A program made the position numbers and the translations under genes. Source: a virus. From it: a stretch of 37,393 nucleotides of DNA. Shown here one piece after another: positions 4,387 to 29,844 of the stretch. The stretch's first letter is position 1; each line of letters begins with the position of its first letter. The stretch is from the IMG/VR virus record IMGVR_UViG_3300017746_000046, positions 1-37,393 of that record; one strand, written 5' to 3'. Below the pieces are notes generated by a model, which worked only from the letters and a program-made list of their open reading frames with translations, ran no database searches and was not told where the DNA came from.

Positions 4387-4395
4387 ACCTAAAGG

Positions 4396-4419: not shown

Positions 4420-4445
4420 TTATATAATTATATTAATTTTACATT

Positions 4446-7808: not shown

Positions 7809-7822
7809 TAAATCAAAATTAG

Positions 7823-10800
7823 ATGGAAAACGAATCTAACAAGCCATTACAGCAAGAGATTAGAAATCAAGAAAGACCTGCCCCAAGCATTATACCTGAA
7901 GGGCAGTTCCGCTTTGAGCCTATGGCAGAAATGTTTGAAACTCCTGAAGAAAACTTTAATGACTATTTGCTAAGTAGTAGTTTAGCAGCAGATGATATTT
8001 CCGGTGTTAATGAATATAAAGCAGATATAGATAAGTATGGTATAGGTGCTATGGCTTCATTAGGAGTTGGTGTACCTAGTTTTGCAACTGATACATATAA
8101 TCCAATAACTCAAGATATACCTAAAGAAAATGACTATACAAAAGTTAAGAACGTATTAACTTTAGATTCAAAACCATTTGTTGATAGCAAAATAACTCCT
8201 GTTTTTTCTGGTATGAGGCAGGGTCAATTTTTGAGATATTATAATCATCCTGAATTTGATAAGTTAGGTTATACACCATATTCTAATATGGAAAACTTTT
8301 ATAATGCAAACTCTACTATCTGGGATGACATGACTAGAATGAGAGGTCAATGGATGTCTCTTGCTGGCACTGGTTTAAACTCTGTATATGAGTTTGCTAC
8401 AGGAGGAGATTACTTAGCTCCTGATTTTGAAACTGCAACTGAGTTTGAAGATACCATGGGAATTGCTTCATCAACCAGAGGAGGTGCTGGTGCTTTCTTT
8501 AATAATTTAGCAGCTAACTCTGCATATACATTTGGTATATTAGGTTCTATTGCTATTGAAGAAATTATCCTAGCTGGTGTTTCTGGTTTATCTGGAGGTA
8601 CCCTTGCTCCAGCTGCTGGTGCAAAAACTGTTGCAAATGTTGCTAAAGCAGGAAAAGCTATATACAGTTTTAGTAAGCTGTTTGATAGAACAAGAAAGAT
8701 ACTTCAAAAAGCAAAACAGCTTGAAACAGCAAGAGATTTTTATAATGCTTCTGTTACAGGTGGAAAAATGGTGCTTAATACATTAGGAAAAGGGTTTACA
8801 CCAAACACAGTAAAAGCATTCCAAAACATGAAGACAGCACAAAATGCTGGGCAAAACATGACTAATCTTGCTAAAATGAGTTCTGGCTTTGGTGGTTTCT
8901 ATAGAGATCTTAGAGCTGTAAATTTAGCAATGGCTGAAAGTAAATTGGAATCAGGTATGGTTTACAACAAGGTTCTTAAGCAAGGTCTTACAGATGCTAA
9001 TAACTTTAGTGGCGGACAAGGTATTACTGATGGTAGAGATGTATCTAATGCTGCTAATCAAGCTGCATTTAAAACATTATTGGGTAATGCACCTCTTATA
9101 TATGCTAGTAACTGGTTTGTTATTGGTAATGCTATGGGTGGTTTTCAAAGAGGAATACAAAGGACTTTGGGTTCTACATTTCAGAAAGGCATAAATAAAA
9201 ATATTGTTAACACCGCAGGTAAAAAAGTTATCAATGGTGCAGGTGAAGTAATTAAAAGCCCATTTAAATATGTAAGTGGTGGATTCAAAAACACTTTAGC
9301 AAAAGTTAAAGCAGGAGGTTTTAAAGGTATTGTTGGTTCGGGTGGTATAGCTATGCTTGATTATTTTGCAGCCAATGTTGCTGAAGGTATACAAGAAATT
9401 GGACAGGAAGCTATTTCTGCAGCAACAGTAGGTTACTATACAGAAGTACTTAACAATCCAGCTCAAGGTGGTGAAGCACTTAAAAATCAAATGATACTAT
9501 CAGCAATGGGTGATCAGTTTTCATCTGAGGGAGCAGGTGTGTTTTTATCTGGTTTTTTAATGGGTGGTTTAGTGCAAGGTCCTCAAAAGTTATTCTTTCA
9601 AGGTATACCTTCTATATATAACTATGGTCTTCAGGAAGCTGGTATAGGTTTGGCAACTAAGTCTCAGAAAGAGGCATATGCTGAATACAAGACTAATAGA
9701 GAGAACATGATTAATAAGGTTGTTGAATCTTATAACAAATCTTGGGATGCTCAAGCAATAGATCCTTCTAGTTTATTTGATGTAAACAGATTAAACTTTA
9801 TGATTCAGAAAGAAGCAGCTGAAAACATAAAGGGTGCTCTTGATATATTTAATTTTGTTGATAGTGCTGATAGAGCTAAATTCCAACAATACTATACAAT
9901 GTTTGCTGGTAATGGGTCACAACATTTTAAAGATCAATTAAAAGGGTTTTTAGAATTAACAGATGAAGAGTTAGCTCAAGCATTTCCAGGCGTATCTAAT
10001 AAAGATAAAAAAGATGGTAAGCTAAGAGGACGTATTAATGATATGCTTGTGGGTATTGATAAGATGGAGGAGTCTTATAATTTAAACAAGGATAAATACA
10101 AAAACCCTTTTAACAAAAATAAATTTAATCCTAAGACTCAACAAAGAGAATACATTAGAGAAATGTTAAATGAAGAAGCATATGAACATGTGCGTTATTT
10201 ATATATGTTTACTAATGATGGATTTACAAGAGCATTAGAAAGAGCAGATAGTATCTACACTAAATTACAATCTGATCCGCTATTTGATAAAATGTCAGCA
10301 AATGATATAACAAACTTGCTTGATGAAAAATCAATTCAGAATGAAATAGATATGCTTAACCTTGAGATTATTGCAACTGAAGGTTCAGATAAAGGTATTG
10401 GAGAATCTAATAAAACAAAAAAAGAAAAAATAAAAAGACTAAAAGCCATTCAAAAAATCATTACTGATCCAAAGAATAGATTTAAGAATGGAACCTTTAA
10501 AAGAAACAAACTTTTAAAAGGAAAGCTTAGAACTGAATTTAGAAACTATGTAAGATTCATGGCATCTGCTGCTGGTACATTTGCTGATGAATCAAAAATA
10601 GATGCAGCTCTTGAGCAAATTGTTGACTACGGTGCTTTAAAAGGAAGAGCACGTGTATATGATAAAGCTATTCAATACATGCAAAATCCAGAAAAGTTTT
10701 CTGAGATTCAACAAAGACAATACGAAGTAAACAAAGAGATTTATAATCAGCGTTCTAAGATAACTGAAGCAATGTTAAAGCAGTATGTAAGTATTGTTGA

Positions 10801-13800
10801 GGCAAATGAATTAATAAATCAGTTAGGTAAAATGGGTGTATACCCGGCTATTTCACAAACAAAAATGTTTTTGGAAACAGGTAATGTAACATTTTTACAG
10901 GACTTCTATGATGATAATGGTAAGGTTGTACCAGAAGTACATTCAGTATTATTTAAACAAATTCAAAGTCACCTAAACGTTTATAAAGAAACTAGAGCAG
11001 AAAGCACTCAACCTGAAGAAGTAAAAACAGAAGAAGAAATATCTATTGAAGAAAGTGAAGAAACTAGATCTGCACTAGATATGCTTTTAGATAAAGCGGG
11101 AATAGATATTAAAATTGATGTAAGTGTTAATAGCCCTTTATTAGTCAATGCTTTAAAAAGAAGTTATAATAAATATAGAGCAAAACAAGCAAGATTAGGA
11201 CAGCCTATTTTAGATAGCACTGAATGGATGAATACTGCAGAAGCAGTGAATATTAGAAATGTTGTTAATGCTATAAAAAAGGTTTGGGCATCAGGAAAAC
11301 CTGAAGTAAATGTTGAGGGTATATTAGAGTTTATCAATCCGCTTGAAAAAGATGTAATAAAAAATGATACGGGATTTGAAGAGTTTCTACAAGACCCTGA
11401 AGTTTTAATTAACAACCCTGTTATAACATCAATACTAAATCAATCAGGTGTTGAAATGTCTGATATTGTTGAAAGTAAAGATGTTAGTTTAGAAGAAGGG
11501 CAAGCGTTAGAAGATACACCTCAAAGAGTTTTCTATAAAGAAGGTGTTACTGCAGATATATATAAGATATCAGTAGTAGATAACCAAACAGGAGAAATTG
11601 TTGAAATGTATAAACTCCTGGATAAAAAAGGCAATGAGTTATCAGATGATATCTTAGACTTTATAGATACAAATTTTAAATCAGTACAAGGAGTATTTTT
11701 ATCTGGACAAGGTAAAACAGCTAAACAAGCATTAGAATCTTTGAATGCAAATCTAGTAGACTCCACAACTCCATTTAGTTTTGACGGTGTTGATGGATTA
11801 ACATATGGACAAATAGTATACAAAGATGGTGTAAAATATATAGTTGTTCAAGATCCAAGGTTTTCTAAAAAGTATGGAGAAAATCAAAAACTTAAAGTAA
11901 TTAAAGAATCTGATAATACAGGTCCTATTTCAGAAAGAAAGTTTTTGTTTATTCCACAAGGTGAGTTTAATGGCAAGTTTACTTTAGAAGAAACTACATT
12001 TAACTTGATTCCGGATACAGTAACTAAGATTCAATTAAAAGATTTAACTTCATTCTATCCTCATGTAAACTATACTGAAGGTGGTGTGGGTACTGATAAT
12101 GCTAAAGCAATAGAAAGATATAATGCTATTCTTAGTTTGCTTTCTCCTGAAGAAATAGCAGGATTGCAATTGGTTGTTATGAGAACTTCTGATGGCGGTA
12201 ACAATACAGGTGCTTATGTTGCTAAAAATAGAGATGGTGAAATATATAAAGAAGCAAATCCATTAATAGATAGATTAGTAAGTAAATACGTCATTGGTAT
12301 AAGAGCAGCTACATCTGATTTACGTGATAGTATTAACATAAAACTAGTTGAGATGGGCATTGAACCATCCAATAGTGAGGAAGGAATTTTTGCTTATATA
12401 AACAATGAATCTTTTTTAATTAGAGATCAACGTACAAACAGTCCTATAGATCCTAGATCTATGACTAGAGAACAAGCAAGCAATGTTATACTAGCAGAAA
12501 AAGGATTAAACAAAGAACAAAAAGCTGAAGCACTAGAGAAAGTGCACAGAGCGTTTGCAATAAATGCATTAATTGTACAAACATTTGATAATTTAAATAT
12601 AGGTAGTGAGCCTTCATATTTTATGGCAGACTCTAAGGAGCTTCCTTTTAATATAAACTTAGTAGCCGGGGGTGGTCAAGTTGCATATGCTAAATCTAGA
12701 GAAACGGTTTATCCTATATCAATGGATGCATTGCAGTACAATACAGCAGATCAAGAAGGTAACTTATTTGTATTTGATTTAAAATATGATAAAGAGACAG
12801 GTAAAAGAATTTATGACTTTACTACTAATTTAAAAGGTAAAGAAAGAGAGGCTTTAGAAGAAGCAATAGAGCAACAACTTAGAATGCAGAATCAGTGGGA
12901 TAACTTACTGGATGCAGGAAAGGGTACTGACAGATATCTAGCTATGGTTAGGTTGCCAAATGGTACATACGCAAAAGTAAATTTAAAACCGGTTGAATAT
13001 ACTAATACTGAATTACAAGAATTATATGTAGATGTAGTTGAGGCAGCTAAAAGAATAGGTGCTATAAAAGATTCAGAAAAAAGTATGGAAGAAGCTGCAA
13101 AGTATAATGCAGAATTAAATGAAAGATTGTTTTTAAGTAGTTATTCGGGTAACTTAATAGAGTTAAATGTAGGACCTGACGGATCTATTTTTATTTCTTT
13201 AGATAATACAAGCACTAAAACAAGTTTAAATGTTGGTCTAAAACCAGAACAAGTTGAAGCAAAAGAGTCTGCTAAAGATGTATTTGAAGACTTACTTGCA
13301 AAGTATAATCAAGATAAAACAGTAGATGATTTAAATGCAGGATTAAAAAATAAAAACTTTAGAAAATCTTTTGCAACAGGTGTATCTCCTGATGTAATAT
13401 ATGAAAATAGTACTACTGAAGTTTTACCACAAGTAGTAAAAAATCAAACAGCAGAAGTTTCTGCTTCATCAGATGCTATACAATTATCACGTGATATTGC
13501 ATATATTCCTAATACAGATAAAAGCAATGAGTTAGAAATGGAATCAGCAGTAGGTAGAGATAGACCTACATCTGCAGAAGCAGAGGATTCCGTATCTGAT
13601 ATGGAAGAAGCTGAGTTTGATAAAATGGTAGATGATGTATCTAATAATAACTTTGGAGAATATCAAGAAAATATTGATCACATTTCTAATGCAATACTCA
13701 GAGGGATTGAATTAACTGAAAGAGAAAAAGAGTTAATGAAAGACTCAAACTTTAAACAGTTAGTTAACCTTATGGTGATTAAAGGTGGAGGAGCCGGTGC

Positions 13801-16800
13801 ACTAGCTGTAGAAAAATCAGAAAAAGAAACTACTCTTGATACTGTAAAAAATGAGCTTAGTGCTTTAAAGCAGAAGCTAGAAGAAGGCCTAACTACCAAG
13901 AAGGATAAAATAAAAGCTATTAAAGAAAGCAAGGAGTACCAAGATTTATTAGCTAAAAGAAAAAAACTAGAAAGAGGAGCTAATAAGCTAGTACAAGCAA
14001 CATCAGAAGTAGAGCGTATAGAAGACTACAATGAGTTTTTAGATTGGGCTAATGATAATTTACCAGATATAATTGGTGTAGAAGATCTTTTGGTTCTTGC
14101 TGACAATGGTATTTCTAAAGGATATGAAAGAGTAGGTTCTTTTGTATTAAATTTAGATAGGGTAGCTAATGGAGTAGATGTAAACGGTATTATATATACA
14201 AGCCCATTAAGCCCTTATAAATACCATGAGGCATTCCATAGTATATTTAGAACAGTTCTTACTCAAGGGCAGATTGATAGATATAGAAGTATTGCTAAAA
14301 AAGAATTAAAAGCCAAGTATGGATCTAAGTATAAAATAGAATTAGAAAAGTTTAAGAATTCAGCTGAGCAATATAAAGAAATGTCTCAACTTGAGTTAGA
14401 AAATGAGTTTGCTGAAGAATATATGGCGGATGAATTTGATGCATTCAAAATGAATCCAAGAAGCTCAAAAATAGATACAGAAATAAAATCATTTTTTACT
14501 AAGTTAATAGAGTGGATTAAAGCTGTATTTTCTAAGTACTCTTCTACAGAGTTACTAACGTTATATGAAAATATAGATTCAGGTAAATTTAAAAATGCCC
14601 CTGTACAACTTAATGAATTTACACAACTTGATGACTCTTTAAGCGGTGCGTTTAGTATTGCCAATGCATTAGTTAGATATGACACAGCATCTAAAGCTGT
14701 AGAAAATGGTGAGCCTGCAGGAGAGCTATATGTTGACTCAGATGTAATAGATCCTTTAATTAGATCTATGGCTGGTATGTTTATAAATAGAGTAAATGAA
14801 TTATCATTAACTGAGAAGTCATATAACCCTACAAAAGTATATAATGATCTTGAAACAGATTTCATGATTATGCTTGATCCAGAGGGAGAAGCCAACAAAG
14901 GTTTTTCTGGAACAAAGAAAGCATATCTTGAACAAATTGATATGGCATTTATAAATTATCCTGAAGACATTAAAAAAGAAGTGTTTGCTTTGATTAATGT
15001 TATTTCTGATATGGATCAGGCTAATCAATTAAAAATAGAAAATGTTGAAGAGACTTCAGGTATAAGAAGTACAAGTGACTTTAATAAAGATGCAGCAGAG
15101 ATAGGTGGTTTTAACTCTTTATCATATAAAGTAAGATCATATATAGCTACTACAACAATGGTTGATACTGACTTCTTTGGTAAGACAGAATTAACTGAGG
15201 GTGAAGCATTGATTGTTCCTGTTAAATTTCAAGAAGCATATACTAGCTTATTAAAATCAGTTTCAAATGAAAGTGATCCTGTAGTTATGCTTAAAAGAAT
15301 GTATGCATATTCTAGATTAAATCCACAAGGTAAGGCGGTTGTAGATAAATTATTTAATGATACGGGATTAACAATAGAAGGTCTAACATCAGAGCAACCA
15401 TTTAAAGATGTTAAAGATGGTTCATTATTGATATCAATATTAAAAGGATTTGAAAACTACAAGGTTGATTATCTATTTAATGAAAGAGATGGTAATGGTA
15501 ACTTATTAGTATATACCGCATCTGAAAGAGATGATATTAATGCTCAGTTAGATGAATGGGCTCAAGCATACATAACAAAAAGAAAACTTGCTGCAGCTAA
15601 CCCTAAGAGATTAAAGCAATTCTTAAGCCTTACTAAAGATATGAAAGAGGCAATGACTTCATATCCAGAGTCAACATCTTTAGCATATCAAATGTCTAGA
15701 GAGTTTTCTCAACGCATGTTTGATCTAATAGGTATTAGATTAAGCCCTAACTACATTGCATATAGTATTGCTAAATCTAAAACAGAAGCTGACTTAAAAA
15801 ACAGTCCTGAATTAAAAGCATTGTCAGATGGATATACAGAGGAACCAATAACAAATGATTTATTAGATCAATTATATTCTGGGTTTAGTACAAATGCAAA
15901 TATATATTCCACTAAACAGGATGGTATGGCATCAAGACTTACTAAGCTTAGTATTTCTAATGCTGCATTTGATGAAACAATTGGATCATCAACATTTATA
16001 AATCCTAATGGTGATATTGTATATGCTCATCAATTACCTACATATCATTTAAAAAGCATTGGGTCATTAAATAACAGATCTAAAATTGAACAATTAAAAA
16101 GTGAAGACTTTTTATCAAATAATTATTTGCTTAATAGTGAAGCATTTTTAAACTTATCTGATCAGAATAGACTAAAAGTAATAAGAGTTGCTGGTAGTAA
16201 AATTAAAGAGCAAATTACAAACGCTGAAAATGATCAAGCTGTTGAAGATATATTAAATGAATCTATATCAAAAAATAAATCAACACAAAGTTTTGGAGAG
16301 TTTACGCCACAAGAGTTTGCTATAGCTATTATAAACAACTATGTTTCTAATTTTAACAGAAGAACGGGTAGAGTTGAAACTGTAGAAGGAAAAGGCGGCC
16401 AACAAGTTGCAATGGCTCCTGTATTTTTAAGAGTAATGGAAGCAGCTAACACTGGAGACCTAACAAGTTTGCCTGTTATTAAAGCAGTTACTGAAGTTAA
16501 CGGTAATGTTGTTCTTACACCAGAAGCTATTAATGTATTTATAAATAGCATAGAGGCTGAGTTTAATAGAATTAGCAAAGAAACATTAGCATTTGAAAAT
16601 GCACCTGGTGATATTCAAGGATTTAATAATGAAAAAAGTGATAGGTCTGATAAAGGCAGAGCATTCAAATTTACTAATAATGGATTATTGCTTTCTGAAT
16701 CAACCAAAAAAGCATTAATACAAGTTGCTATTGATAAAGCTAAACAAGGAGAGACGGTTTCTTTTAAACAAGCTGTGTCACTAGCTGTAGGTGTAACAAA

Positions 16801-19800
16801 TGCATCTATTAGATCAGAAGTTAATAAAAGCTTAGAGCAAAGCTTTAAAGAATTTGATGATGTGATTACATCATTAAAAGCAAAAGATAATCTTTCTACG
16901 CAAGTATTAAACGGATTAACTATTGCATCTGGTGTTTCTAGAGGTGCTGTTGAATTATCACAACTTAAGTTAAATCTTACAAATGATTCAGCATATAACT
17001 TAAAACAAATATTTTTTAACAACTATATCAATTCTAAGTCAATGAATGATTTACTGCTTGGTGATCAAGCTGTATCTTTAAAAGACATGGTTGATAAAGT
17101 TAAAAGAGCAAAACTACAGAATGCTGCATACTATAGTGCCTATAGTGAAATTACGGATCTTAATAAAGGTATTACTCATTCTAGTACTAATTTTGATTTA
17201 TATCCTTTCCAAGATCCAACAGCTAAGTCTGATTTTACAGGTAATGATATTGAATTAGCAGATGCTCAAGTTTATATTACTACAAAAGGTATAAGATATT
17301 CTACTTTTGCATTTGGTAGATTAAGTCCTGCAATGGCAAGTATGCTAGATAGCATTGATAAGGGTGAGTCTATAAATGCTGATAGAGCATGGGGTTCTGC
17401 TGAAAACTCTATTAATTTAGCAAAGCAACAGGACTTTATAAACTCTAAGAAGTTTGTATATATGGATGGTAAAACTGCTTTAAAAATGTCAGTTACCGTT
17501 TTAACAAAAGAGTATACATCCAACTATAATCAAAAAACAGGTACGTGGGAGGCTAAACCTAACATGCAACAGCTTCATTATTTACGTGAACAAATGGAAG
17601 CTAATGAAGAAGCAAATAAAAACTTTGCAATGGCGGCTCCAGTTTCAGCAATAAAAATGCTAAAACAGGGGATTAATTTACTTGAGTCAAATGTATTTGA
17701 TACAACACAAGATTTGCAATCTATTAATTTAGACACATCTTACTTGGGTCTTCAAGTTGTAAACCCTTCTAACAAGATTATAGTAACTGATATGAACCAA
17801 ATCAAGGAGCTTATAACTTCTGAACAAAGTGATGATGTAGAAATTACTATAGAAGGAAGCCCTGAGTTAAATACTGTAGGAAAAGTAAGAGACGCATACA
17901 ACAAAGCAGTAGGAGAAAGAGTAACTTTAAAATACAAAAACAAAAGAAATTTAGTATTTAGTTTTGACACGGCACTTGATGAGTTAGAATTATCAAAAGA
18001 AAAAGGAGCCATTACCCCAAATCTTGCTGCATTTTTATTAGAAGCACAAAAAGGTCTTATGGCTTCAGGAGCTGCATCAAACTTACTTGAGTTCTTTGGA
18101 GTTGAAGATGGTGTTCAAAAGTATAATTTAAACAGTCCGGTAACAGCTAAAAAGTTTGAACAACTTTTCTTGACTTATTTTAGCAAAGGCACACTAAGAG
18201 AAAAAGTACCTGGTACTTCAGTTGCATTACTATCTTCATTTGGTCATAAGGTTTATAGACGTGTATATGAAATGAAAAACGGTATGCCTATTAGATCTGA
18301 GATTGTAAGAGAAAGTTCTTATAATGGAGAGAGCCTAGAAAACATAAATGATCTTGTTGATGGTAAACATGATGGCATTCTTGTTCTTGATGTTCTTAGA
18401 ACAGGGGTTATGGAATACCAAAATGATGATGTTGTAAATGGGGAGCCTACAGGAGTAAGATATAGTGAAACTATTATGCCTCCTATGGATAGAAATGTAA
18501 TGGAGTTAATTCAAGAAAATTCAAATGCTTCAATACCAGATGCAGTAGCCAAGTTGTTTGGAGTACGTATACCAACACAAGATAAACATTCAGCTGTAAA
18601 CATAAGAGTTGTTGATTTTATGCCTGTATATTATGGTTCAACAGCTATATTTCCAAAAGAACTTGTAGAAATATCAGGAGCGGATTTTGATATTGATAAA
18701 GTATATGCATTGGCAAAAGAGTACTATTTAGATAGCAATAAAGAATTTAAAGCTTACGGTTCTGGTAATTCTTATTTTGAGTATATAAAGTACATGAATC
18801 AAAAAGCTTCTGAACCTAATAATATTTATAGTACATCATCTTCTTTATACAAGGAGGAAACCTTGGCTATTAGAAGAGAAAACTCTTTGAGTGATTCTGA
18901 ACAAAATAGAGTTACAGACAAACAAGGTGTAAACAGTATATCAGAAGAAGCTCTTAGAGCAATGTTAATATTGGGTCTTCCTGTTACTAAAAAACAATTT
19001 GAAGAATATTCTAAAAAGTTTGGATCACCTAACGAGGCGGTTTTAAACAATAACATTTTAGATTATAGATATGTATTAGCAGGTAATGTTGGTGTAACAG
19101 GTGAAACACTAAAGACTATTGATCAAGATGCTGGTGAAGGTAAATCTGATTTGCCTATTGCTTATCAAGCAGCTGACTTAAAAATATTAGAAGATTTATT
19201 TGATGAGCTTTCTAATGTTGAGGGTATAGAATTATTTGCAAGCAGAAAGGATTCTGATGTAGATATTGATACACTTCATGGAATGATAAAAGCCTTTGAA
19301 GCAAACAAAGGAGCTGCAATTGGTGCTATTGTTAAACCTAATTTAGCTTTAAGTTTATTGCGTGAGTACAATATTAAATTAGTTAGTCCTATAAAATTTA
19401 ATAATAATACATATGATGGGTTTACTAAAGACAAAATAAATGGTGAAAGAATACAAGATATTATTTCTACTCTAGTAACAATGGAAACCGATAATGCTAA
19501 AGAACGTTTAATAGCAAAGTTTGGTCTTAATATTCATGCTGTTGGTTTAGTTGGTAATATGGTTTCATTGGGAATCCCATTAAGAACTTCAATTTTATTA
19601 GTAAATTCTGCTGAAATAAGAGACTTGTATGATCAAGCTTTAAATAAAGAGGACAAATTTGATGCAGGTTTAGATACTCTTTTAACAAAGCGTATTGCGT
19701 CTTTAGCATCATTAGTTGCTAAGGAAAAAGAAGGTGGTAATAAACCGCCATTTGTAAAACTATCAGATGAGTTTTTAGAGACAGCTGTAGACAGCACTGA

Positions 19801-21646
19801 AGATTTAACTAATAATGAAAGACTTCAAATACTATTTTTATTTGATAGACTTAATAACATTAAAAACTTTACAGGTAAAATAAATAAAGTAACAAGTCTT
19901 ACTCAAGGTCTACCTAGTTCAATACCAGAAATGAAAGATGCTATTGAAACAATTACTAGTTTGTTTGATAAGGAAGCACCTATGAATATCAGACCTATTT
20001 ATGGTAAGAATAGCAAAACTTGGCAGAGTACTTATTTAGAAATATTTGGTCAAATACATAATGATCTTTTACCTAACACTATTTTAACTATGAGTCAGGA
20101 CTTTAATGATATACTAGAGCCTACTTATAATCAAATGAATGTTGACTCAAGAGGTTTTGATAATGTAGCAAAAAATGGTATTGAACAAGATCTATTATCT
20201 TATTTAACAATTAAGTCATACCAACATCTTCTTAATAATAGCTCTGGTAATTCTTCTGTAGAAAACACATTGCTTTATCCTGGTCCTGTAGGTACAACTA
20301 ACTTATCATTGATTAAAAAAATTGAAGACTTACAATTGCTAAGAGCTGAACAAGGTGCAGAGCCTAATTACTTCTTAGATAATTTTGTAGGTACTCAATA
20401 TGCCGGAACTCAGGGTAATAACACAGGAATGAATTTAGTAAAAGCGGATACATGGAGAAGACTTAATGCATCTAATAAACTTGATTTACAAACATCCTTT
20501 GCAAAACTATATGGTTCACTTGAGACAAGAGAAATAGCTGAAGACATTCTGCATTACATGATGGTTAAAGATGGATTGCAGCTTAAGTATGGAAGTCTTA
20601 TGAGTGCAATGAGTCCTTTTATTATGAATAAATATCTTAAGAATGTTGGTTCTGTAGAAGCTGCACTTAAAGGACAAGTAGAATTTGAAAGTGTTTTTGG
20701 TATCTCTAAACAAGAAGTGATGAAAGATTTTAAATATGGATACTTACAATCTAATGTTGTAGGACCATTGCTTGTCACTTATGATGCTTCTAGTCTTGAT
20801 GAAGGCTTTACTTTTGACCCAGTTTCTAGACCTAATAAGTTTACTATTACTTCTGAGAGTTTTGAACATGTAAATGCAAAAGAGTTTGTAAGGGTTAAAG
20901 TTGAAAGACAAGGTAGAGATTTCTATGTTTTGTTTAGATTGCTTGCTAAAGATAATCCTAATGCAAAGGTAACTGAATACTTAGAAGTTCCTTCTATGGG
21001 TTCTAATCAACAATTTGGTGGTGGTTTTGTAGGAGGACCTAGACTTACATATGATCAAGCAAGAAATGTAGGCAAAGGAACTACACAAAATAGTTTACCT
21101 CAAGATAGAGCTGCACAACTAGAACAACCAGCACAACAAACTAGTGAGGTTGAGTATCCTGTTGATACTAATCTTGGAGCTATACTAGAAGTTAATGAAG
21201 TATTAAACTCTGACTCAGCAATAGTTAATCAAACTACAGATTCTGTAACAGTTAAAGCAGATATAGATGCAGCAGAAACAAATATATCTGATATGGCAAA
21301 AATAATGGCTGAGTTGTCTGCTAACACAGATAGTGCTATATTTGATGAGACAGGAAATGCTATTATAGAAGATACTGATATGAGCATTCCAGAAGCTACA
21401 GAACTTGAACAACAAGAGCAAGAACAACTAGAACTTGATCTTTTTGCTTCAGAAGAAATTTCAGAAGCCTCAAGTTTAGTAGAATGGTGGGATGCAAATG
21501 TAGAAGGTAATAGTGCTGCTTTAGAAAAGCTTTCTGGAGAAAATATAAAAACACTTGATGATGCAATAGCTTTATACGGTGATTTATTTTCACAAACAGA
21601 AGAGGGAGAACAAGAAATAATTGAGAGACTTAAATGTCTTATATAA
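7823..21646 (+). CDS. Giant multidomain protein: membrane-prone N-terminus, HExxH metallopeptidase, crAss-like RNA polymerase (4607 aa)
   Basis: The polymerase is identified by D3621-F-D-I-D3625-K, the Mg-binding DxDxD signature of double-psi beta-barrel polymerases. It is preceded at R3582 by R-I-P-T, then F-x-P-V-x-x-G and F-P, the same order as around the NADFDGD loop of cellular beta-prime subunits. In crAss-like phages this enzyme is known to be a virion RNA polymerase that transcribes early genes. The region from about 2240 to 4400 roughly matches the size of the phi14:2 enzyme, with the motif at a similar relative position. Upstream are a predicted coiled coil (about 1997-2070) and a zinc-peptidase motif H2135-E-A-F-H2139 with a candidate third ligand in E2195-F-A-E-E. 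The N-terminal 600 residues carry hydrophobic, Gly/Ala-rich stretches near 234-255, 504-525 and 572-590, suited to membrane insertion. The C-terminus is Gln/Glu-rich. Polymerase confidence is high; processing into separate chains is inferred. Confidence 0.9.
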   Translation: MENESNKPLQQEIRNQERPAPSIIPEGQFRFEPMAEMFETPEENFNDYLLSSSLAADDISGVNEYKADIDKYGIGAMASLGVGVPSFATDTYNPITQDIPKENDYTKVKNVLTLDSKPFVDSKITPVFSGMRQGQFLRYYNHPEFDKLGYTPYSNMENFYNANSTIWDDMTRMRGQWMSLAGTGLNSVYEFATGGDYLAPDFETATEFEDTMGIASSTRGGAGAFFNNLAANSAYTFGILGSIAIEEIILAGVSGLSGGTLAPAAGAKTVANVAKAGKAIYSFSKLFDRTRKILQKAKQLETARDFYNASVTGGKMVLNTLGKGFTPNTVKAFQNMKTAQNAGQNMTNLAKMSSGFGGFYRDLRAVNLAMAESKLESGMVYNKVLKQGLTDANNFSGGQGITDGRDVSNAANQAAFKTLLGNAPLIYASNWFVIGNAMGGFQRGIQRTLGSTFQKGINKNIVNTAGKKVINGAGEVIKSPFKYVSGGFKNTLAKVKAGGFKGIVGSGGIAMLDYFAANVAEGIQEIGQEAISAATVGYYTEVLNNPAQGGEALKNQMILSAMGDQFSSEGAGVFLSGFLMGGLVQGPQKLFFQGIPSIYNYGLQEAGIGLATKSQKEAYAEYKTNRENMINKVVESYNKSWDAQAIDPSSLFDVNRLNFMIQKEAAENIKGALDIFNFVDSADRAKFQQYYTMFAGNGSQHFKDQLKGFLELTDEELAQAFPGVSNKDKKDGKLRGRINDMLVGIDKMEESYNLNKDKYKNPFNKNKFNPKTQQREYIREMLNEEAYEHVRYLYMFTNDGFTRALERADSIYTKLQSDPLFDKMSANDITNLLDEKSIQNEIDMLNLEIIATEGSDKGIGESNKTKKEKIKRLKAIQKIITDPKNRFKNGTFKRNKLLKGKLRTEFRNYVRFMASAAGTFADESKIDAALEQIVDYGALKGRARVYDKAIQYMQNPEKFSEIQQRQYEVNKEIYNQRSKITEAMLKQYVSIVEANELINQLGKMGVYPAISQTKMFLETGNVTFLQDFYDDNGKVVPEVHSVLFKQIQSHLNVYKETRAESTQPEEVKTEEEISIEESEETRSALDMLLDKAGIDIKIDVSVNSPLLVNALKRSYNKYRAKQARLGQPILDSTEWMNTAEAVNIRNVVNAIKKVWASGKPEVNVEGILEFINPLEKDVIKNDTGFEEFLQDPEVLINNPVITSILNQSGVEMSDIVESKDVSLEEGQALEDTPQRVFYKEGVTADIYKISVVDNQTGEIVEMYKLLDKKGNELSDDILDFIDTNFKSVQGVFLSGQGKTAKQALESLNANLVDSTTPFSFDGVDGLTYGQIVYKDGVKYIVVQDPRFSKKYGENQKLKVIKESDNTGPISERKFLFIPQGEFNGKFTLEETTFNLIPDTVTKIQLKDLTSFYPHVNYTEGGVGTDNAKAIERYNAILSLLSPEEIAGLQLVVMRTSDGGNNTGAYVAKNRDGEIYKEANPLIDRLVSKYVIGIRAATSDLRDSINIKLVEMGIEPSNSEEGIFAYINNESFLIRDQRTNSPIDPRSMTREQASNVILAEKGLNKEQKAEALEKVHRAFAINALIVQTFDNLNIGSEPSYFMADSKELPFNINLVAGGGQVAYAKSRETVYPISMDALQYNTADQEGNLFVFDLKYDKETGKRIYDFTTNLKGKEREALEEAIEQQLRMQNQWDNLLDAGKGTDRYLAMVRLPNGTYAKVNLKPVEYTNTELQELYVDVVEAAKRIGAIKDSEKSMEEAAKYNAELNERLFLSSYSGNLIELNVGPDGSIFISLDNTSTKTSLNVGLKPEQVEAKESAKDVFEDLLAKYNQDKTVDDLNAGLKNKNFRKSFATGVSPDVIYENSTTEVLPQVVKNQTAEVSASSDAIQLSRDIAYIPNTDKSNELEMESAVGRDRPTSAEAEDSVSDMEEAEFDKMVDDVSNNNFGEYQENIDHISNAILRGIELTEREKELMKDSNFKQLVNLMVIKGGGAGALAVEKSEKETTLDTVKNELSALKQKLEEGLTTKKDKIKAIKESKEYQDLLAKRKKLERGANKLVQATSEVERIEDYNEFLDWANDNLPDIIGVEDLLVLADNGISKGYERVGSFVLNLDRVANGVDVNGIIYTSPLSPYKYHEAFHSIFRTVLTQGQIDRYRSIAKKELKAKYGSKYKIELEKFKNSAEQYKEMSQLELENEFAEEYMADEFDAFKMNPRSSKIDTEIKSFFTKLIEWIKAVFSKYSSTELLTLYENIDSGKFKNAPVQLNEFTQLDDSLSGAFSIANALVRYDTASKAVENGEPAGELYVDSDVIDPLIRSMAGMFINRVNELSLTEKSYNPTKVYNDLETDFMIMLDPEGEANKGFSGTKKAYLEQIDMAFINYPEDIKKEVFALINVISDMDQANQLKIENVEETSGIRSTSDFNKDAAEIGGFNSLSYKVRSYIATTTMVDTDFFGKTELTEGEALIVPVKFQEAYTSLLKSVSNESDPVVMLKRMYAYSRLNPQGKAVVDKLFNDTGLTIEGLTSEQPFKDVKDGSLLISILKGFENYKVDYLFNERDGNGNLLVYTASERDDINAQLDEWAQAYITKRKLAAANPKRLKQFLSLTKDMKEAMTSYPESTSLAYQMSREFSQRMFDLIGIRLSPNYIAYSIAKSKTEADLKNSPELKALSDGYTEEPITNDLLDQLYSGFSTNANIYSTKQDGMASRLTKLSISNAAFDETIGSSTFINPNGDIVYAHQLPTYHLKSIGSLNNRSKIEQLKSEDFLSNNYLLNSEAFLNLSDQNRLKVIRVAGSKIKEQITNAENDQAVEDILNESISKNKSTQSFGEFTPQEFAIAIINNYVSNFNRRTGRVETVEGKGGQQVAMAPVFLRVMEAANTGDLTSLPVIKAVTEVNGNVVLTPEAINVFINSIEAEFNRISKETLAFENAPGDIQGFNNEKSDRSDKGRAFKFTNNGLLLSESTKKALIQVAIDKAKQGETVSFKQAVSLAVGVTNASIRSEVNKSLEQSFKEFDDVITSLKAKDNLSTQVLNGLTIASGVSRGAVELSQLKLNLTNDSAYNLKQIFFNNYINSKSMNDLLLGDQAVSLKDMVDKVKRAKLQNAAYYSAYSEITDLNKGITHSSTNFDLYPFQDPTAKSDFTGNDIELADAQVYITTKGIRYSTFAFGRLSPAMASMLDSIDKGESINADRAWGSAENSINLAKQQDFINSKKFVYMDGKTALKMSVTVLTKEYTSNYNQKTGTWEAKPNMQQLHYLREQMEANEEANKNFAMAAPVSAIKMLKQGINLLESNVFDTTQDLQSINLDTSYLGLQVVNPSNKIIVTDMNQIKELITSEQSDDVEITIEGSPELNTVGKVRDAYNKAVGERVTLKYKNKRNLVFSFDTALDELELSKEKGAITPNLAAFLLEAQKGLMASGAASNLLEFFGVEDGVQKYNLNSPVTAKKFEQLFLTYFSKGTLREKVPGTSVALLSSFGHKVYRRVYEMKNGMPIRSEIVRESSYNGESLENINDLVDGKHDGILVLDVLRTGVMEYQNDDVVNGEPTGVRYSETIMPPMDRNVMELIQENSNASIPDAVAKLFGVRIPTQDKHSAVNIRVVDFMPVYYGSTAIFPKELVEISGADFDIDKVYALAKEYYLDSNKEFKAYGSGNSYFEYIKYMNQKASEPNNIYSTSSSLYKEETLAIRRENSLSDSEQNRVTDKQGVNSISEEALRAMLILGLPVTKKQFEEYSKKFGSPNEAVLNNNILDYRYVLAGNVGVTGETLKTIDQDAGEGKSDLPIAYQAADLKILEDLFDELSNVEGIELFASRKDSDVDIDTLHGMIKAFEANKGAAIGAIVKPNLALSLLREYNIKLVSPIKFNNNTYDGFTKDKINGERIQDIISTLVTMETDNAKERLIAKFGLNIHAVGLVGNMVSLGIPLRTSILLVNSAEIRDLYDQALNKEDKFDAGLDTLLTKRIASLASLVAKEKEGGNKPPFVKLSDEFLETAVDSTEDLTNNERLQILFLFDRLNNIKNFTGKINKVTSLTQGLPSSIPEMKDAIETITSLFDKEAPMNIRPIYGKNSKTWQSTYLEIFGQIHNDLLPNTILTMSQDFNDILEPTYNQMNVDSRGFDNVAKNGIEQDLLSYLTIKSYQHLLNNSSGNSSVENTLLYPGPVGTTNLSLIKKIEDLQLLRAEQGAEPNYFLDNFVGTQYAGTQGNNTGMNLVKADTWRRLNASNKLDLQTSFAKLYGSLETREIAEDILHYMMVKDGLQLKYGSLMSAMSPFIMNKYLKNVGSVEAALKGQVEFESVFGISKQEVMKDFKYGYLQSNVVGPLLVTYDASSLDEGFTFDPVSRPNKFTITSESFEHVNAKEFVRVKVERQGRDFYVLFRLLAKDNPNAKVTEYLEVPSMGSNQQFGGGFVGGPRLTYDQARNVGKGTTQNSLPQDRAAQLEQPAQQTSEVEYPVDTNLGAILEVNEVLNSDSAIVNQTTDSVTVKADIDAAETNISDMAKIMAELSANTDSAIFDETGNAIIEDTDMSIPEATELEQQEQEQLELDLFASEEISEASSLVEWWDANVEGNSAALEKLSGENIKTLDDAIALYGDLFSQTEEGEQEIIERLKCLI

Positions 21647-21661
21647 TTAAACAATAATCAA

Positions 21662-24600
21662 ATGGCTAAATGTTATAATAGAAATGATCCGGGATACCAA
21701 GCATTAAAGGATGAATATGGTACTGATATCAAAACATCTAAGGTTATTAGTGACTGGCAACGTGTTAATGATTCTGATGCGTTTCCTAGTGTTGTCCAAG
21801 CTCTGACTATGGTTAAAGACCAAGATGTTGCATTCTCATTAAAAAGAAAAGCATTTGGAGAAAGCGTGCTCAATAATTTAAGAAGAGAAAGAATAGGTAG
21901 CAATTTAGCAGGGCAGTTTTTAATTAATAATTCAAATCCTCAGACATTATCATATGATGAAGCTTTTTTACAAAGTAATCTAAAAAGGTTTTACAGATAC
22001 TTAGAAATTAATAACATACCAAAAGATTCATTTACAGTAACAAGAACGCCAAAAAGCTATAAGATTGAACCTATTAATGATATGTTCTCTGCTAGAGATA
22101 TACTTGAAAGTTCAAGATCATGGGACACCAATAGATCAAGAGCGGTTGTTATGCATCTTAAGAGAATGTTTCCGCAGATACAAGTTAAAATGTTATCTGT
22201 TGCACAAGCAAGAGTAATGTATGAATCATTACCAAAAACTAAAACCAATAATGTTCCTTTTAATGAGATAAATTCTTTTTATATGGATGGTGTAGCTTAC
22301 TTAATAAAAGGTAGGGTTACAGATGAAATAGCAATTGAAGAAATGCTGCATCCTTTTATAGATGCAGTAAAGATGGAGAATGAAGAATTATTTAACTCAC
22401 TTCTTGATGAAGCAGTAAATAATTTTCCAGAACTATCAGCAGAAATTGAAGATGCTTACAATAGTAGCACAAGAAACTTTACAGATACAGAAAGAGATCT
22501 TGAAATTGTAACACAAGCATTATCAAGACACTTCAAAAAAGAATATGAAACAACACCTACAAAAGGATTCTTAGCAAAAGTTAAAGAACTTCTTGAGTGG
22601 TTTAAAGGAGTAATTGAAAACCTTAATAAATATATTACTGGTAGAGAGTTACCTGTATCTGCTATTAAACCGGGTACAAGTCTAAGTGATATTGCTAAAC
22701 TACTTAATACAGAGGGTATTCAGTTTAAACTAGAAAAAAGAGTTGATGGTAAATTAAGATATAGTTTATCACCATCTAAAGAAATACAAGTCAAAGATGC
22801 ACTAGAAAGAGCTAATGATACGCAGAAGCCTATTATAATGCAGCTATTTAATGTAGCACAGAGTGAAAACTCTGGTCTTGTTGATTCTCTGTCAGCGTCA
22901 GTAAAAGATGCAGCTGCTGGAGATTCAATTGTAACACTTAATAAAGAAGATCATACATACATAAATTCTAATGATTCTGATAAAGTATATACATCAGTAA
23001 CCACAGCTATAAAAGGAAAACTTTCACCAGATAAACAAGTTGCTCATAAGATTAACTTGGATATTGGTAATGAGGTTGACACACTATTAGATGGTGTTAT
23101 TGCTAACCTTTCTTTTGAAGATGCATATGCTGCACTAGAGACAAATAACATATCTAAAGATAAAGCTAAAGATACTTTTGATACTCTTGCTAGTATTATG
23201 GATAGTTTAAAAATGAAAGGTGCAATTGTGTTATCTCAAGTTGTTTTGTTTGATGAAGCTTCTAAGATGGCGGGTACTGCAGATGTATTTATTATAGATC
23301 AACATGGTAGAATTAACATCATGGATCTTAAGACTACAAAAAATGAGTTAAGTAAAGAGGTAGCTTTAAATGATAAAAAAGGAAAGCGTGTAGGAAATCA
23401 ATATAAAGAAAGATTTTACGCCTTAGAACAAGACTCAGTGTTATATCAACAAGGATTAGCAAAAGAATTATCAACAGAGCAACAGCATAACTTACAAGTT
23501 AATGTTTATAGAAGAATGGCTGAAAATATGGGGTATGAAGTATCTTATGATGAATGGGCCACCTCTACAATACACTTTAAAGTTGGTATAGAAGGAACAG
23601 GATCTGATCAAGTGTTTGATGGATCAATTGAATTTGATAGATGGGTTCCTCATCCTGTAAGTCAAAATCTTAATTTAGTAGATGCTCTTGTACCAGAAGT
23701 AAGAAACTCCTATCAAAAAAGTAAATTAGAAAAAGATCAAGAAGGTTCATACAATAAAATATGGAATGGTAAGGACCAGAAAGAGGAAACAACTGAAGAT
23801 GATAAAAAAGCAGCAGAAAACTATGATGAATATAATGCTGCAGCTGGTTTACTAGATACATATCAGAAAGCACTTATTGAAAAAAGGGATATGATTCCTT
23901 TGTTGAAGTCTAATATATATATGGAATCAACAAAAGAAAATGAAATTGATCAAATATCTAAAACAATAGCATATATAAACTTAGCTATGGCTGGTAATGT
24001 TAAAGGCCAATCAAAAGCTTTGTCTGAAGTTTTGCTTGATGCTTTATCTCAAATAAAAGATTTTAGAGCTTATGTAGAAAATCCTAAGAATATAAATTCT
24101 CCTGAATATGTTTCTTATGTTTTAAACTTTGATAAGTATATGAAAACATTTGAAGGGCTTTTTATACTTAAAGATTTAAAAGGTTTAAATAATACTCAAA
24201 AGAATTTAATTTTATCATTACAACAACAACTTAATTTACTTAGTGGTGCTGGTACTGACACAGGAGGAATAGTAGGTGAAGCACTAAAAGACTATGTTAA
24301 AGAAATGGTGAGGCTAAAATCAAATAGAGATTTTGGTGGTGAAAATAGTTTATATACTGAAAAAGACTTAGAGCTTTTGATGGAAAAAGCTGCAGATATC
24401 AGTGACACTGAATATCAAACTAAAGATATGGCAACATCTCCAGATGTACTATTGGCTACAATGGATAAAATAAGAAAAGCCCAAAATCAAAAGCTATTAG
24501 ATCTTGTAGCTCAAAGAGAAAACCTTATAAGAAAGGCTGGACAAAAGCTTGCAAAGTTATCTCCTGAATTAAAACTTGACGAGTTATATGAATTCATGTT

Positions 24601-27439
24601 AGAGTATGATGCAGACGGTACTTTTAATGGTAGATATGTAACAAAAATAGGAGAACAATATTGGGCTATACAAAATGAACTCAGAAGTCAACTTTATGAT
24701 AATGAAGGTACACCATATCAATACAGACCTGTTTATAATTTAGAAACAGCAAGTAAAGAAGATATAGAATACAATAAAGATCTAGCTGCTAAAAAGAAAG
24801 CATATGGTGATTTTTATATGGCTGAGCAAAAAAGAGATGATGGTACATTACGTCCTTCAGGTATGTATCACAAGTACACCCAAGAGTTTATTGATATCAG
24901 AAATAAATATGAAGTGTGGAGACCTGGTGCTGAAACTAATCAAAGAGGAAGTTGGGAAAAGAAAAAAAATATTTCAGATGCAGACTATGCAGCTTATGTT
25001 GCAAAATATTATCAGCCGGTTGAATATACCAGAGCTGTAAGAATAAAGGGAGAGGCAACAGGGCAAATTATAGAAGACCGTCAAGATATGATGGTGCCTA
25101 AAGCAGAGTATAGACAAATACTAGAAACCACCCTTGATGGGCGTAATATGAGAAACGCCAAGTATGATGCCATAATGAGTGGTACTGATGCAAAATCTAT
25201 AGCCCAAAGGGAGTTTTATCAATTATACATAGATATGTATGAGAATGACTTGCTTAAGAAAATACCTATTGGGCAAAGTGCACAAATGTTGGGTAGAGTT
25301 CCTTTAGTACAGAATAGATTGATGACTGATGTAAAAGAGAAAGGGACTTTGTTTACCAAGCTATATGCTAGTATGACAGAGAGTAGGGCTTGGAATATGT
25401 TTCAACAAACCTCTACTCAAAAAAATGTTATACTAGATAATGAGGGTTATATTATTGATCAAATGCCTATTTACTATACCGGTAGACCTAAGCTTGATAC
25501 TGATATGGCTGATTTACAAAAAGAAATTGATCTTCTTAAATCAAAGTATAAAAAGAATGAAATCCAAGATCAGCAGTATAAAAAGCAAATAGCTGTATTA
25601 AATGGTAAAATGGTAAGGCTCAGAGCAACACCAAGTAGAGGACAGATTAGCACAGATATGGCATCTAGTTTACTTAAGTTTAGTGCAATGGCTCAAAACT
25701 ATGAAACAATGGGCGCTGTAGATGATACCTTAAAAGCTTTTGTTAAGGTAATTGAAAACAGAACATATACTCCTGCTCCTGGATTGAGATTAAATCTAGT
25801 AGCAAAAGTAAAAGATAAAGTTATAGATAATTTAGGTACTAAAGCTAATACAAGTACTCAAGAAAAAAATGTAGTACGTAGAGCAAAGAAGTTTATGTCT
25901 ATGATTCATTATGAAAATGAAAACATTACTAAGGGTGCTGTAGATAAAATTGCAGATGGTCTTATTCAGTTGTCTTCTTTGTCATATGTAGCGTTTAACC
26001 CATTTGGTAACTTTAATAACTACTTGATTGGTAGAATAAATAACAATATTGAATCTATTGGTGGTAGATTTTATAGTCAAAAGGCATTTAAAAGAGCAAC
26101 CTGGGAATTTAATAAGAGAGCTATTCCAGGATTAGTCAATAGAACAGCACATGGTGGAGCAGAAGATTTACTTGACGTAGTAACATTAGGTGTTATACCA
26201 GGATTAGCTAAAGCTGACTATGATAAAAAACTACCTAATAGTAAGTATGAAGCTTTTGTTGATATGTTCAGAATGATGGATAGTATGTCTGATATACGTG
26301 AACAAAGTAGAGCTACTGAAGATGGTAAAAGTTGGTTTGATAGAGCAACTGAGTGGGGTTATGTGATGCAAGATGCTGCTGAATATAATTCACAGACCAA
26401 AGTGGGTATGGCTATACTTATGGATACTATGATTAGAAATAGTAAAACAGGAGAAGAGCTGTCATTCTATGATGCATTTGAATACGATACAAAAACACAT
26501 AAGAATAAAATTAAAGATGGTTTTGATATAGTAATCAAAAGAAATGGACAAGAAGTAGCTTATAATGATGATATAAGATATGAAATTAGAAATGAGATTA
26601 GAGAAGTTAATAAACAAATCCATGGTAACTATGCCAAGGAAGATAGAATTGTTCTTCAGTCACATACACTTGGTGCATTAGCTATTCAATTTAAAAAGTG
26701 GTTGGCCCCAGCAATTAGAGCAAGGTATCAAAGAGAATACTTTGATGAAAATCTAGGATGGATGGAAGGTAGATATAGATCTGCTTTATCATTCTTAAAT
26801 TTTGCAAGAAAAGAGTTGGCTCAAGGTAATATGAACTTTAGAACAATGGGTAAAGAATACCTAAACCAACAAGTTAGAGCATATACTAGTGAAAAGTTTG
26901 GAGAAGCAAGAGATTATGGTGGAGGTGGTAACATAGATCAAAGAGCTAAGAATAGACTATTTGGTTTCTATAGAAGTATGGGTGATTTAGGTATCATGTT
27001 TAGTGTTATGTTTATTTCTTTGCTATTTGATGATTTATTATCTGGTGATGATGATGATAGTGATACTGAAAAGAGATTTAAAAATTTAACAAGATATCAA
27101 GCAGATAGAGTATATAAGGAACTTGTTTTATTCATGCCTTCTTTTGCAGGGTTTGAACAGGTAGAGCAAATGTTTAACTCACCTATTGCTGCATCAAGAT
27201 CAGTAAGTGAAATGTCTGAAGCTTTTGAAATGATTTTTGTTGGAGGTTTCAAATATACAATGGCTAAAGCAACCGGAAATGAAGAAGCATTTTATGCTAA
27301 TTCTAATTATGTATATCAAAGAGGTAAAAGAAAAGGAGAATTAAAGGTATATAAAAACATTAAAGATGTATTCCCACTACTATATTCTATTCAGAAATGG
27401 GATTCATACCTTAAAAACTCTGATTTCTATATTAAGTAA
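21662..27439 (+). CDS. Large crAss-like protein with degenerate peptidase module and PD-(D/E)XK nuclease (1925 aa)
   Basis: A RecB/Cas4-like nuclease fold is indicated by Y-T-S-V-T upstream, then GTAD541VF, strand, MD555-L-K557, and a downstream Q-V-N-V-Y (QxxxY) helix. This is the order of a PD-(D/E)XK catalytic core, whose families cleave DNA using divalent metal. Nearer the N-terminus, E226-E-M-L-H230 followed by E281IVTQAL sits where an HExxH...E zinc peptidase would be, but the first His is Glu, so peptidase activity is probably lost. The following LLEWFKGV helix resembles the segment after the peptidase in the preceding giant protein. The C-terminal 450 residues resemble a conserved crAss-like helical region, and one hydrophobic segment (GIMFSVMFISLLF, near 1775) precedes an acidic run (GDDDDSD). 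The start is 15 nt after the polymerase gene. It is likely a virion cargo protein. The DNA target is unknown. Confidence 0.82.
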   Translation: MAKCYNRNDPGYQALKDEYGTDIKTSKVISDWQRVNDSDAFPSVVQALTMVKDQDVAFSLKRKAFGESVLNNLRRERIGSNLAGQFLINNSNPQTLSYDEAFLQSNLKRFYRYLEINNIPKDSFTVTRTPKSYKIEPINDMFSARDILESSRSWDTNRSRAVVMHLKRMFPQIQVKMLSVAQARVMYESLPKTKTNNVPFNEINSFYMDGVAYLIKGRVTDEIAIEEMLHPFIDAVKMENEELFNSLLDEAVNNFPELSAEIEDAYNSSTRNFTDTERDLEIVTQALSRHFKKEYETTPTKGFLAKVKELLEWFKGVIENLNKYITGRELPVSAIKPGTSLSDIAKLLNTEGIQFKLEKRVDGKLRYSLSPSKEIQVKDALERANDTQKPIIMQLFNVAQSENSGLVDSLSASVKDAAAGDSIVTLNKEDHTYINSNDSDKVYTSVTTAIKGKLSPDKQVAHKINLDIGNEVDTLLDGVIANLSFEDAYAALETNNISKDKAKDTFDTLASIMDSLKMKGAIVLSQVVLFDEASKMAGTADVFIIDQHGRINIMDLKTTKNELSKEVALNDKKGKRVGNQYKERFYALEQDSVLYQQGLAKELSTEQQHNLQVNVYRRMAENMGYEVSYDEWATSTIHFKVGIEGTGSDQVFDGSIEFDRWVPHPVSQNLNLVDALVPEVRNSYQKSKLEKDQEGSYNKIWNGKDQKEETTEDDKKAAENYDEYNAAAGLLDTYQKALIEKRDMIPLLKSNIYMESTKENEIDQISKTIAYINLAMAGNVKGQSKALSEVLLDALSQIKDFRAYVENPKNINSPEYVSYVLNFDKYMKTFEGLFILKDLKGLNNTQKNLILSLQQQLNLLSGAGTDTGGIVGEALKDYVKEMVRLKSNRDFGGENSLYTEKDLELLMEKAADISDTEYQTKDMATSPDVLLATMDKIRKAQNQKLLDLVAQRENLIRKAGQKLAKLSPELKLDELYEFMLEYDADGTFNGRYVTKIGEQYWAIQNELRSQLYDNEGTPYQYRPVYNLETASKEDIEYNKDLAAKKKAYGDFYMAEQKRDDGTLRPSGMYHKYTQEFIDIRNKYEVWRPGAETNQRGSWEKKKNISDADYAAYVAKYYQPVEYTRAVRIKGEATGQIIEDRQDMMVPKAEYRQILETTLDGRNMRNAKYDAIMSGTDAKSIAQREFYQLYIDMYENDLLKKIPIGQSAQMLGRVPLVQNRLMTDVKEKGTLFTKLYASMTESRAWNMFQQTSTQKNVILDNEGYIIDQMPIYYTGRPKLDTDMADLQKEIDLLKSKYKKNEIQDQQYKKQIAVLNGKMVRLRATPSRGQISTDMASSLLKFSAMAQNYETMGAVDDTLKAFVKVIENRTYTPAPGLRLNLVAKVKDKVIDNLGTKANTSTQEKNVVRRAKKFMSMIHYENENITKGAVDKIADGLIQLSSLSYVAFNPFGNFNNYLIGRINNNIESIGGRFYSQKAFKRATWEFNKRAIPGLVNRTAHGGAEDLLDVVTLGVIPGLAKADYDKKLPNSKYEAFVDMFRMMDSMSDIREQSRATEDGKSWFDRATEWGYVMQDAAEYNSQTKVGMAILMDTMIRNSKTGEELSFYDAFEYDTKTHKNKIKDGFDIVIKRNGQEVAYNDDIRYEIRNEIREVNKQIHGNYAKEDRIVLQSHTLGALAIQFKKWLAPAIRARYQREYFDENLGWMEGRYRSALSFLNFARKELAQGNMNFRTMGKEYLNQQVRAYTSEKFGEARDYGGGGNIDQRAKNRLFGFYRSMGDLGIMFSVMFISLLFDDLLSGDDDDSDTEKRFKNLTRYQADRVYKELVLFMPSFAGFEQVEQMFNSPIAASRSVSEMSEAFEMIFVGGFKYTMAKATGNEEAFYANSNYVYQRGKRKGELKVYKNIKDVFPLLYSIQKWDSYLKNSDFYIK

Positions 27440-29833: not shown

Positions 29834-29844
29834 TGGTTTTATTT

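Follow-up and report, generated by a model that had tools for sequence, protein, structure and literature searches.

A predicted virion RNA polymerase and a putative zincin-type peptidase domain in one giant protein of a probable crAss-like phage

Two giant ORFs were found in the window, the 37,393-base virus record analysed here, and three modules, A, B and C, are distinguished in them (Table 1). The first ORF joins module A to module B in a single frame, and the second is module C. Translation of window positions 18566-18700 gives RIPTQDKHSAVNIRVVDFMPVYYGSTAIFPKELVEISGADFDIDK, residues 3582-3626 of the 4607-codon frame, in which RIPT begins at residue 3582, FMPVYYG comes next and DFDID follows at residues 3621-3625 (DNA 18683-18697). 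An initial annotation of this DNA had reported these motifs, in this order, within one uninterrupted frame of 4607 residues, and both points are borne out by translation, with no internal stop in 7823..21646. Pfam named no family in the four largest ORFs of the window (none at 0.01 in the giant ORF), PHROGs gave no name for either giant ORF, and a megablast search of 8.9 kb of window DNA against phages gave no match. Beside the transcription cassette, on the minus strand at 28208-30825, are genes for the small (326 aa) and then the large (541 aa) subunit of ribonucleotide reductase, and holin-like genes are located at 27532-27945 and 32958-33419.

Table 1. Positions of the modules and motifs in the window, with the basis of each assignment.
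Feature	Position	Strand	Basis or remark
4607-aa ORF, module A fused to module B	7823..21646	+	Frame without internal stop
Module A, residues 1-~2260	7823..14602	+	In place of a separate upstream gene (crAss001 gp47)
Weakly hydrophobic stretch, residues 238-256 (19 residues)	8534..8590	+	Kyte-Doolittle 1.66
Zincin-like site, HEAFH (2135-2139) ... EE (2198-2199)	14225..14419	+	Alignment A3
Predicted disordered linker, residues ~2239-2280	14537..14662	+	pLDDT <50 at 2239-2241 and 2243-2280
Module B, predicted two-barrel RNA polymerase, residues ~2285-4450	14675..21172	+	Profile and fold; C-terminal end estimated from gp66 length
Catalytic DFDID, residues 3621-3625	18683..18697	+	Translation, alignments, profile
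Module C, 1925-aa ORF	21662..27439	+	Counterpart of crAss001 gp49, phi14:2 g065 and the C-terminal part of p-crAssphage gp44
EEMLH, module C residues 226-230	22337..22351	+	At the place of zincin HExxH
GTADVFII...DLKT, module C residues 538-558	23273..23335	+	Pattern match only

The giant ORF has a counterpart of identical 4607-aa length, with 23 differences, in a 114,219 bp record that is 99% like the window (IMGVR_UViG_3300033153_000868, here G001). The counterpart of the 1925-aa ORF in G001 is likewise of the same length, with 15 differences, and the G002 counterpart of the giant ORF has 4639 aa. A 72-base repeat is present at both ends of G001, and this genome is therefore possibly complete. 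In a comparison with locus L005 (86% identical around the motif), dN/dS of the giant ORF is 0.093-0.303 in all 11 of 11 blocks, block 1-600 being based on 470 aligned codons; the ratio is lowest near the catalytic site and over residues 1-600, and highest in the tail, 4151-4607. Given the same ORF in G001, these ratios and the motif conservation described below, the 4607-residue frame is real and beyond chance.

Terminase (phrog_6681, 1.3e-59), portal (phrog_6547, 5.1e-88) and head protein (phrog_11589, 1.7e-26) genes lie beyond the window's reach and are found in G001 in the order seen in p-crAssphage. Phage matches of the G001 terminase (best 25 of 133) and portal (best 20 of 131) are mostly crAss-like, with Flavobacterium and Cellulophaga phages also among the matches listed; the top row is Suoliviridae cr50_1 for the terminase (26%) and Leptolyngbya phage Lbo-JY46 for the portal (33%). 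DNA polymerase and primase matches are also present in G001, together with a 2095-aa ORF with a virion-structural match and a 2028-aa ORF with an endolysin-like match, and the giant gene is preceded by ORFs that have virion-structural and lysozyme-like matches. The p-crAssphage TerL found nothing in three related contigs; since the TerL of G001 does find crAss TerLs, this failure is attributed to sensitivity. Marks of the Crassvirales given in PMC7886860 are IHF, the gene 75 signature and the place in the TerL tree, and environmental outgroups exist according to the same source. From these sequence matches, the source of the window fits a crAss-like phage in the wide sense.

Residues 2241-4392 matched 107 phage records in a tblastn search (best E 2e-12 among the matches listed), the best 40 of which are crAss-like or unannotated faecal phages; the matched genes in p-crAssphage, crAss002 and R. 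jaberico are annotated as the RNAP catalytic subunit. In an 11-row alignment around the motif (A1), which includes p-crAssphage, crAss001 and crAss002, G, R, P, S, P, G, D, F, D, D and Y are invariant, and DFDID is invariant except at its fourth residue (I/V). RIP and SGADFDID are invariant across the 43 rows of a second alignment (A2), window included. Module B aligns with crAss001 gp50 plus phi14:2 gp66 with strong support (hhalign E 3.6e-15). Searched against 177,635 PDB sequences, the A2 profile finds 6vr4_A, the phi14:2 RNAP, at E 7.7e-15 in two significant collinear stretches, with the runner-up at 0.66. A single-sequence phmmer search of the PDB returned nothing, and 6VR4 was reached by alignments only. 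The RNAP beta family PF00562 has no match in the window record, and no Pfam RNAP family is found in the giant ORF.

An AlphaFold2 model of residues 2950-4148 (pLDDT 82.7, pTM 0.82) retrieved 6vr4_A with Foldseek at E 1e-28, the sole match at or below 1e-3 of 341, followed by P23-45 gp96 and QDE-1. VIA aligned model positions 1-1183 to 6vr4 750-1867 (Z 18.6, rmsd 3.7, 913 residues), the next matches being QDE-1 (Z 14.0), RDR2 (13.4) and the P74/P23-45 polymerases (8.5-10.2). Both barrels of phi14:2 gp66 lie within one chain (PMC7886860), and two double-psi barrels in one polypeptide are likewise predicted here through alignment of the whole model to 6vr4, rather than strand by strand. A second model, of residues 2000-2940 (pLDDT 72.7), includes the zincin-like site of module A, and Foldseek found no solved structure for it at E up to 1e-3. 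Its residues 2300-2940 align weakly with 6vr4 95-740 (VIA Z 7.3, rmsd 6.7). This mapping is collinear with that of the first model, and the polymerase therefore appears to fill about 2285-4450. Thus, residues ~2285-4450 are supported as a predicted virion RNA polymerase with two barrels, of the same kind as phi14:2 gp66. The initial annotation had proposed a polymerase segment of ~2100 residues, the size of the phi14:2 enzyme, and had named beforehand a double-psi fold and a profile match to crAss-like polymerases as its tests. The predicted fold and the A2 profile both lead to 6vr4_A, and its suggested boundary at residue 2240 is within about 45 residues of the one adopted here.

Only the final 130-170 residues or so of module A show convincing sequence homology. 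All 40 rows of alignment A3 have YHEAFH and, 63-64 residues past its first His, a Glu pair; these rows were chosen by BLAST coverage and do not include L056, a locus without the motif; a separate 57-row set was selected for YHEAFH and is hence no evidence for its conservation. Other crAss-like A proteins have HExxH with Glu-containing blocks downstream. Judged from sequence, module A thus carries a putative zincin metallopeptidase signature, HExxH with a downstream Glu as candidate ligand. The zincin end matches crAss001 gp47 (profile positions 2091-2220; hhalign E 3.9e-10 and 5.9e-10) and Suoliviridae A (8.8e-11), and matches Intestiviridae/Crevaviridae A at E 0.021 only. The A gene of phi14:2 (g067) has no match to module A (best E 0.28) and no HExxH. 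The profile of the zincin region reached Pro-Pro endopeptidase 6fpc in the PDB at E 0.39 only, and a Pfam scan of 40 junction members found no peptidase family. Four Pfam families appeared in that scan, each in a single member and none of them in the window, and were taken as chance.

Upstream of the zincin end, the best match of module A to crAss-like A proteins has E 0.0047 and a probability of 7.5%, and tblastn of residues 1-2240 against phage records gave none at 0.1. Among the known families, the N-termini of A match one another weakly (E 3.9e-4 and 6.1e-4). With no convincing match in this part, its equivalence is based on gene order. The peptidase and fused partner expected by the initial annotation are recovered in the crAss001 gp47-type zincin-like domain with which A ends, HEAFH beginning at residue 2135. 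Its description of the N-terminus as membrane-prone is fair for one stretch, 238-256, where the hydrophobicity is mild. Module A is very probably a capsid cargo or ejection protein ending in a putative zincin-type metallopeptidase domain, a judgement made jointly with that on the cassette as a whole.

The hhalign comparisons were carried out module by module; whole profiles of 4600 columns gave short B alignments and nothing for A. Module C groups with crAss001 gp49 plus phi14:2 g065 (E 7.8e-15) and with the C-terminal part of gp44-like proteins (E 4.1e-20), with four cross-module controls at E 0.015-0.23, and tblastn with this module retrieved 74 records. EE[MVI]LH occupies the place of the first zincin His in 82 of 82 aligned module C rows, duplicate contigs included. 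At that place cr118_1 has EEVMH (hhalign E 3.8e-17) and Lbo-JY46 has HEFMH (1.5e-13), suggesting a zincin-like domain whose motif has been altered yet is conserved. HEIMH of phi14:2 g065 was considered as the equivalent of EExxH and rejected at E 0.38, as was crAss001 gp49 as a match to this region (0.057); only Lbo-JY46 and cr118_1 match. Lbo-JY46 (PP438436.1; L107 and L108) is recorded from a cyanobacterium; none of its four large ORFs that were read contains D[FYLW]DxD, and it is either a crAss-like phage outside the Bacteroidota or one with a mislabelled host. Further along module C, GTADVFIIDQHGRINIMDLKT resembles by pattern what we take to be the core of PD-(D/E)XK nucleases. This stretch has no Pfam match. 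PDDEXK domains are present in some of the giant proteins of transcription blocks, according to PMC7886860.

The three modules are joined differently among crAss-like phages. They are separate in phi14:2 and crAss001 (Steigviridae), with A on the opposite strand in crAss001. B and C are fused, and A is separate, in the Intestiviridae p-crAssphage, R. jaberico, crAss002, cr11_1 and cr271_1 and in cr127_1 (Crevaviridae), six of the six genomes examined from these two families; HExxH is in A, and DFD[IV]D is at 1433-1740 of BC. A and B form a single plain frame, as in the window, in the Suoliviridae cr118_1 (4946 aa), cr50_1 (4774 aa) and cr10_1 (4460 aa), and one frame with 78 TAG read through in cr125_1 of the same family. 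These ORFs resemble the window's in carrying both HEA[FY]H and DFDID within a single frame, at a spacing of 1475 in cr118_1, 1489 in cr50_1, 1477 in cr10_1 and 1486 in the window, and in being followed by another large ORF. The following ORF matches module C in cr118_1 (E 4.8e-8) and weakly in cr50_1 (2.9e-4) and cr125_1 (0.0015), with no detectable homology in cr10_1 (E 0.52). They differ in sequence, the RNAP core of cr118_1 being 18% identical to that of the window in A1. In bajarodcaudo virus 1, cr116_1 (Steigviridae) and cr131_1 (Suoliviridae), the stretches read do not show the polymerase motif. The records MT774375.1, MT774379.1, NC_055900.1 and MT774394.1 label their giant RNAP genes 'DNA helicase' or 'nuclear pore complex-like', with 'DNA helicase' used for cr118_1 and cr50_1, and the gene of cr10_1 is annotated as hypothetical.

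The A+B fusion is thus known in kind, being already present in published gut phage genomes. Titles and abstract openings of the open-licence papers retrieved contain neither the A+B join nor a crAss zincin, and Fig. 3 of PMC7886860, which draws transcription blocks, may perhaps already include the fusion. The unusualness that the initial annotation implied is not upheld for the fusion, given the same join in Suoliviridae, nor for the size, since RNAP genes as long as ~6000 aa are mentioned for crAss-like phages (PMC10136315). In a tree of the RNAP core (35 rows, with cr50_AB and phi142_B, which the motif filter missed, left out), the 25 rows of the window group form a single clade with full support (100/100), of unsure placement. 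Suoliviridae do not join the window group in this tree, where the AB label needs two changes and branches are long.

One profile scan of IMG/VR found at least 79 loci, with at least 545 of 599 candidate stretches confirmed. The sample comprises 86 loci on 81 distinct contigs (five loci being duplicate contigs), and YHEAFH and DFDID are in one frame in 78 of the 86 loci and 73 of the 81 contigs, or 73 of 77 testable contigs once L038, L052, L064 and L082, cut by a contig end before the motif place, are left out. The two motifs are 1460-1855 residues apart in 76 loci, 1490 in L102 and 2715 in L083. L083 has 1229 more residues than the window between the motifs (about 5107-8735), in frame, with two more HExxH strings; the addition, possibly an intein or an inserted domain, is near window 2940-2985, an insert site in other members. 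The B core of L056 (3713-13594) is in a 3294-aa frame; upstream of B, HEAFH is missing and BLAST finds nothing that matches residues 2000-2940 of the window, suggesting that B has either another partner here or one that has diverged strongly. A frame break separates the motifs in L044, L057 and L104. These three of the 81 distinct contigs are what might be cited for an assembly artefact that joined two genes into a long frame. However, the same join is seen in the 73 testable contigs, which come from differently numbered IMG/VR sources (some near-identical), and also in Suoliviridae genomes, and the G001 ORF is equal in length; an artefact is already contradicted by the evidence in hand and has a negligible probability.

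The joint itself is placed at ~2260-2285 from the end of crAss001 gp47, 48 residues past a stretch aligned by eye with window 2247-2259, and from the disorder of the model at ~2239-2280. The A stop and B start of phi14:2 overlap as TAATG, and loss of one stop codon in an overlap of this type could suffice to fuse A to B. The fused protein may be a polyprotein, the zincin cutting the linker next to it (about 2239-2280) either inside the virion or following ejection; such a cut would extend the best explanation by freeing a polymerase of gp66 size, about 2200-2300 residues. This is tentative and on balance rather doubtful. It is consistent with the position of the peptidase site directly upstream of the predicted disordered linker, with the invariance of YHEAFH and the Glu pair in the 40 A3 rows, and with A and B being separate genes in the unfused relatives examined. 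Zincin-like peptidases process large multidomain injected proteins, and N4-type RNAPs are nearly always fused to one, according to PMC5512222. However, eight of nine separate A proteins also have HExxH, at 185-552 residues from their end (the ninth, that of phi14:2, is without it), so that it is not present for this cut alone, and the N4 vRNAP has an HExxH domain yet is described as a 3,500-residue enzyme (PMC12633501). A more specific version, in which the polymerase would be delivered as an inactive or tethered polyprotein, the zincin would cut the linker in cis after ejection only, releasing the polymerase in the host, and the EExxH domain of module C would be a non-catalytic partner, is unlikely. 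Module B could also be produced alone from an internal start near the A-B joint, and Met codons at residues 2316 and 2319, as well as the B start of phi14:2 overlapping the A stop, would agree with this. However, the stretch 2284-2333 is poorly conserved, and an internal start appears more improbable still.

The homology of B, C and the end of A, the module order, the conservation and the predicted fold of B are established here, and the window very probably holds the virion transcription cassette of a crAss-like phage in the order A, B, C, with A+B as its first giant ORF. The closest comparison is phi14:2 gp66 (PDB 6VR4), which shares DFDIDK, the RIP[NT] block, the fold and a similar module length, and the gene for which is flanked by that of an annotated structural protein of the virion on one side and that of an RNAP-associated protein on the other; it is a separate 2180-aa protein, whereas the polymerase of the window is the C-terminal half of 4607 aa. 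In p-crAssphage (Carjivirus communis) the three modules are in the same order in gp45, annotated as 'RNAP associated protein fused to zincin protease', and gp44, annotated as 'RNAP catalytic subunit fused to unknown RNAP subunit', although with the other joint fused (A / B+C, against A+B / C in the window). N4 gp50 also combines an ejection part, an RNA polymerase and an HExxH domain in one injected protein of ~3,500 aa (PMC12633501, PMC5512222). However, its polymerase is of the T7 family, with an unrelated fold, and its HExxH comes after the polymerase. Thus, this resemblance is convergence, not kinship.

The DFDID of module B would hold the catalytic Mg2+ in a single-chain polymerase with two double-psi barrels, and module C would be a polymerase-associated protein. 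The crAss001 counterparts of A, B and C (gp47, gp50 and gp49) are found in virions by mass spectrometry and are virion cargo expected to leave ahead of the DNA (PMC10172136), and early genes are transcribed by the phi14:2 polymerase (PMC7886860, PMC10136315). By analogy with these two phages, A+B and C may be packed in the capsid and ejected through the tail partly unfolded, to refold in the cytoplasm, where B would transcribe the early genes with no need of the host polymerase. Whether the zincin of module A separates A from B is a testable question that the fusion raises. With the loci found in the IMG/VR scan, at least 79 in that one scan, the crAss-like virion polymerases gain a sizeable group, and giant genes that carry the label 'DNA helicase' or 'nuclear pore complex-like', including those of Suoliviridae, become readable. 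The genomes examined follow a simple pattern, in which A, B and C keep a fixed order and are fused at either joint or at neither.
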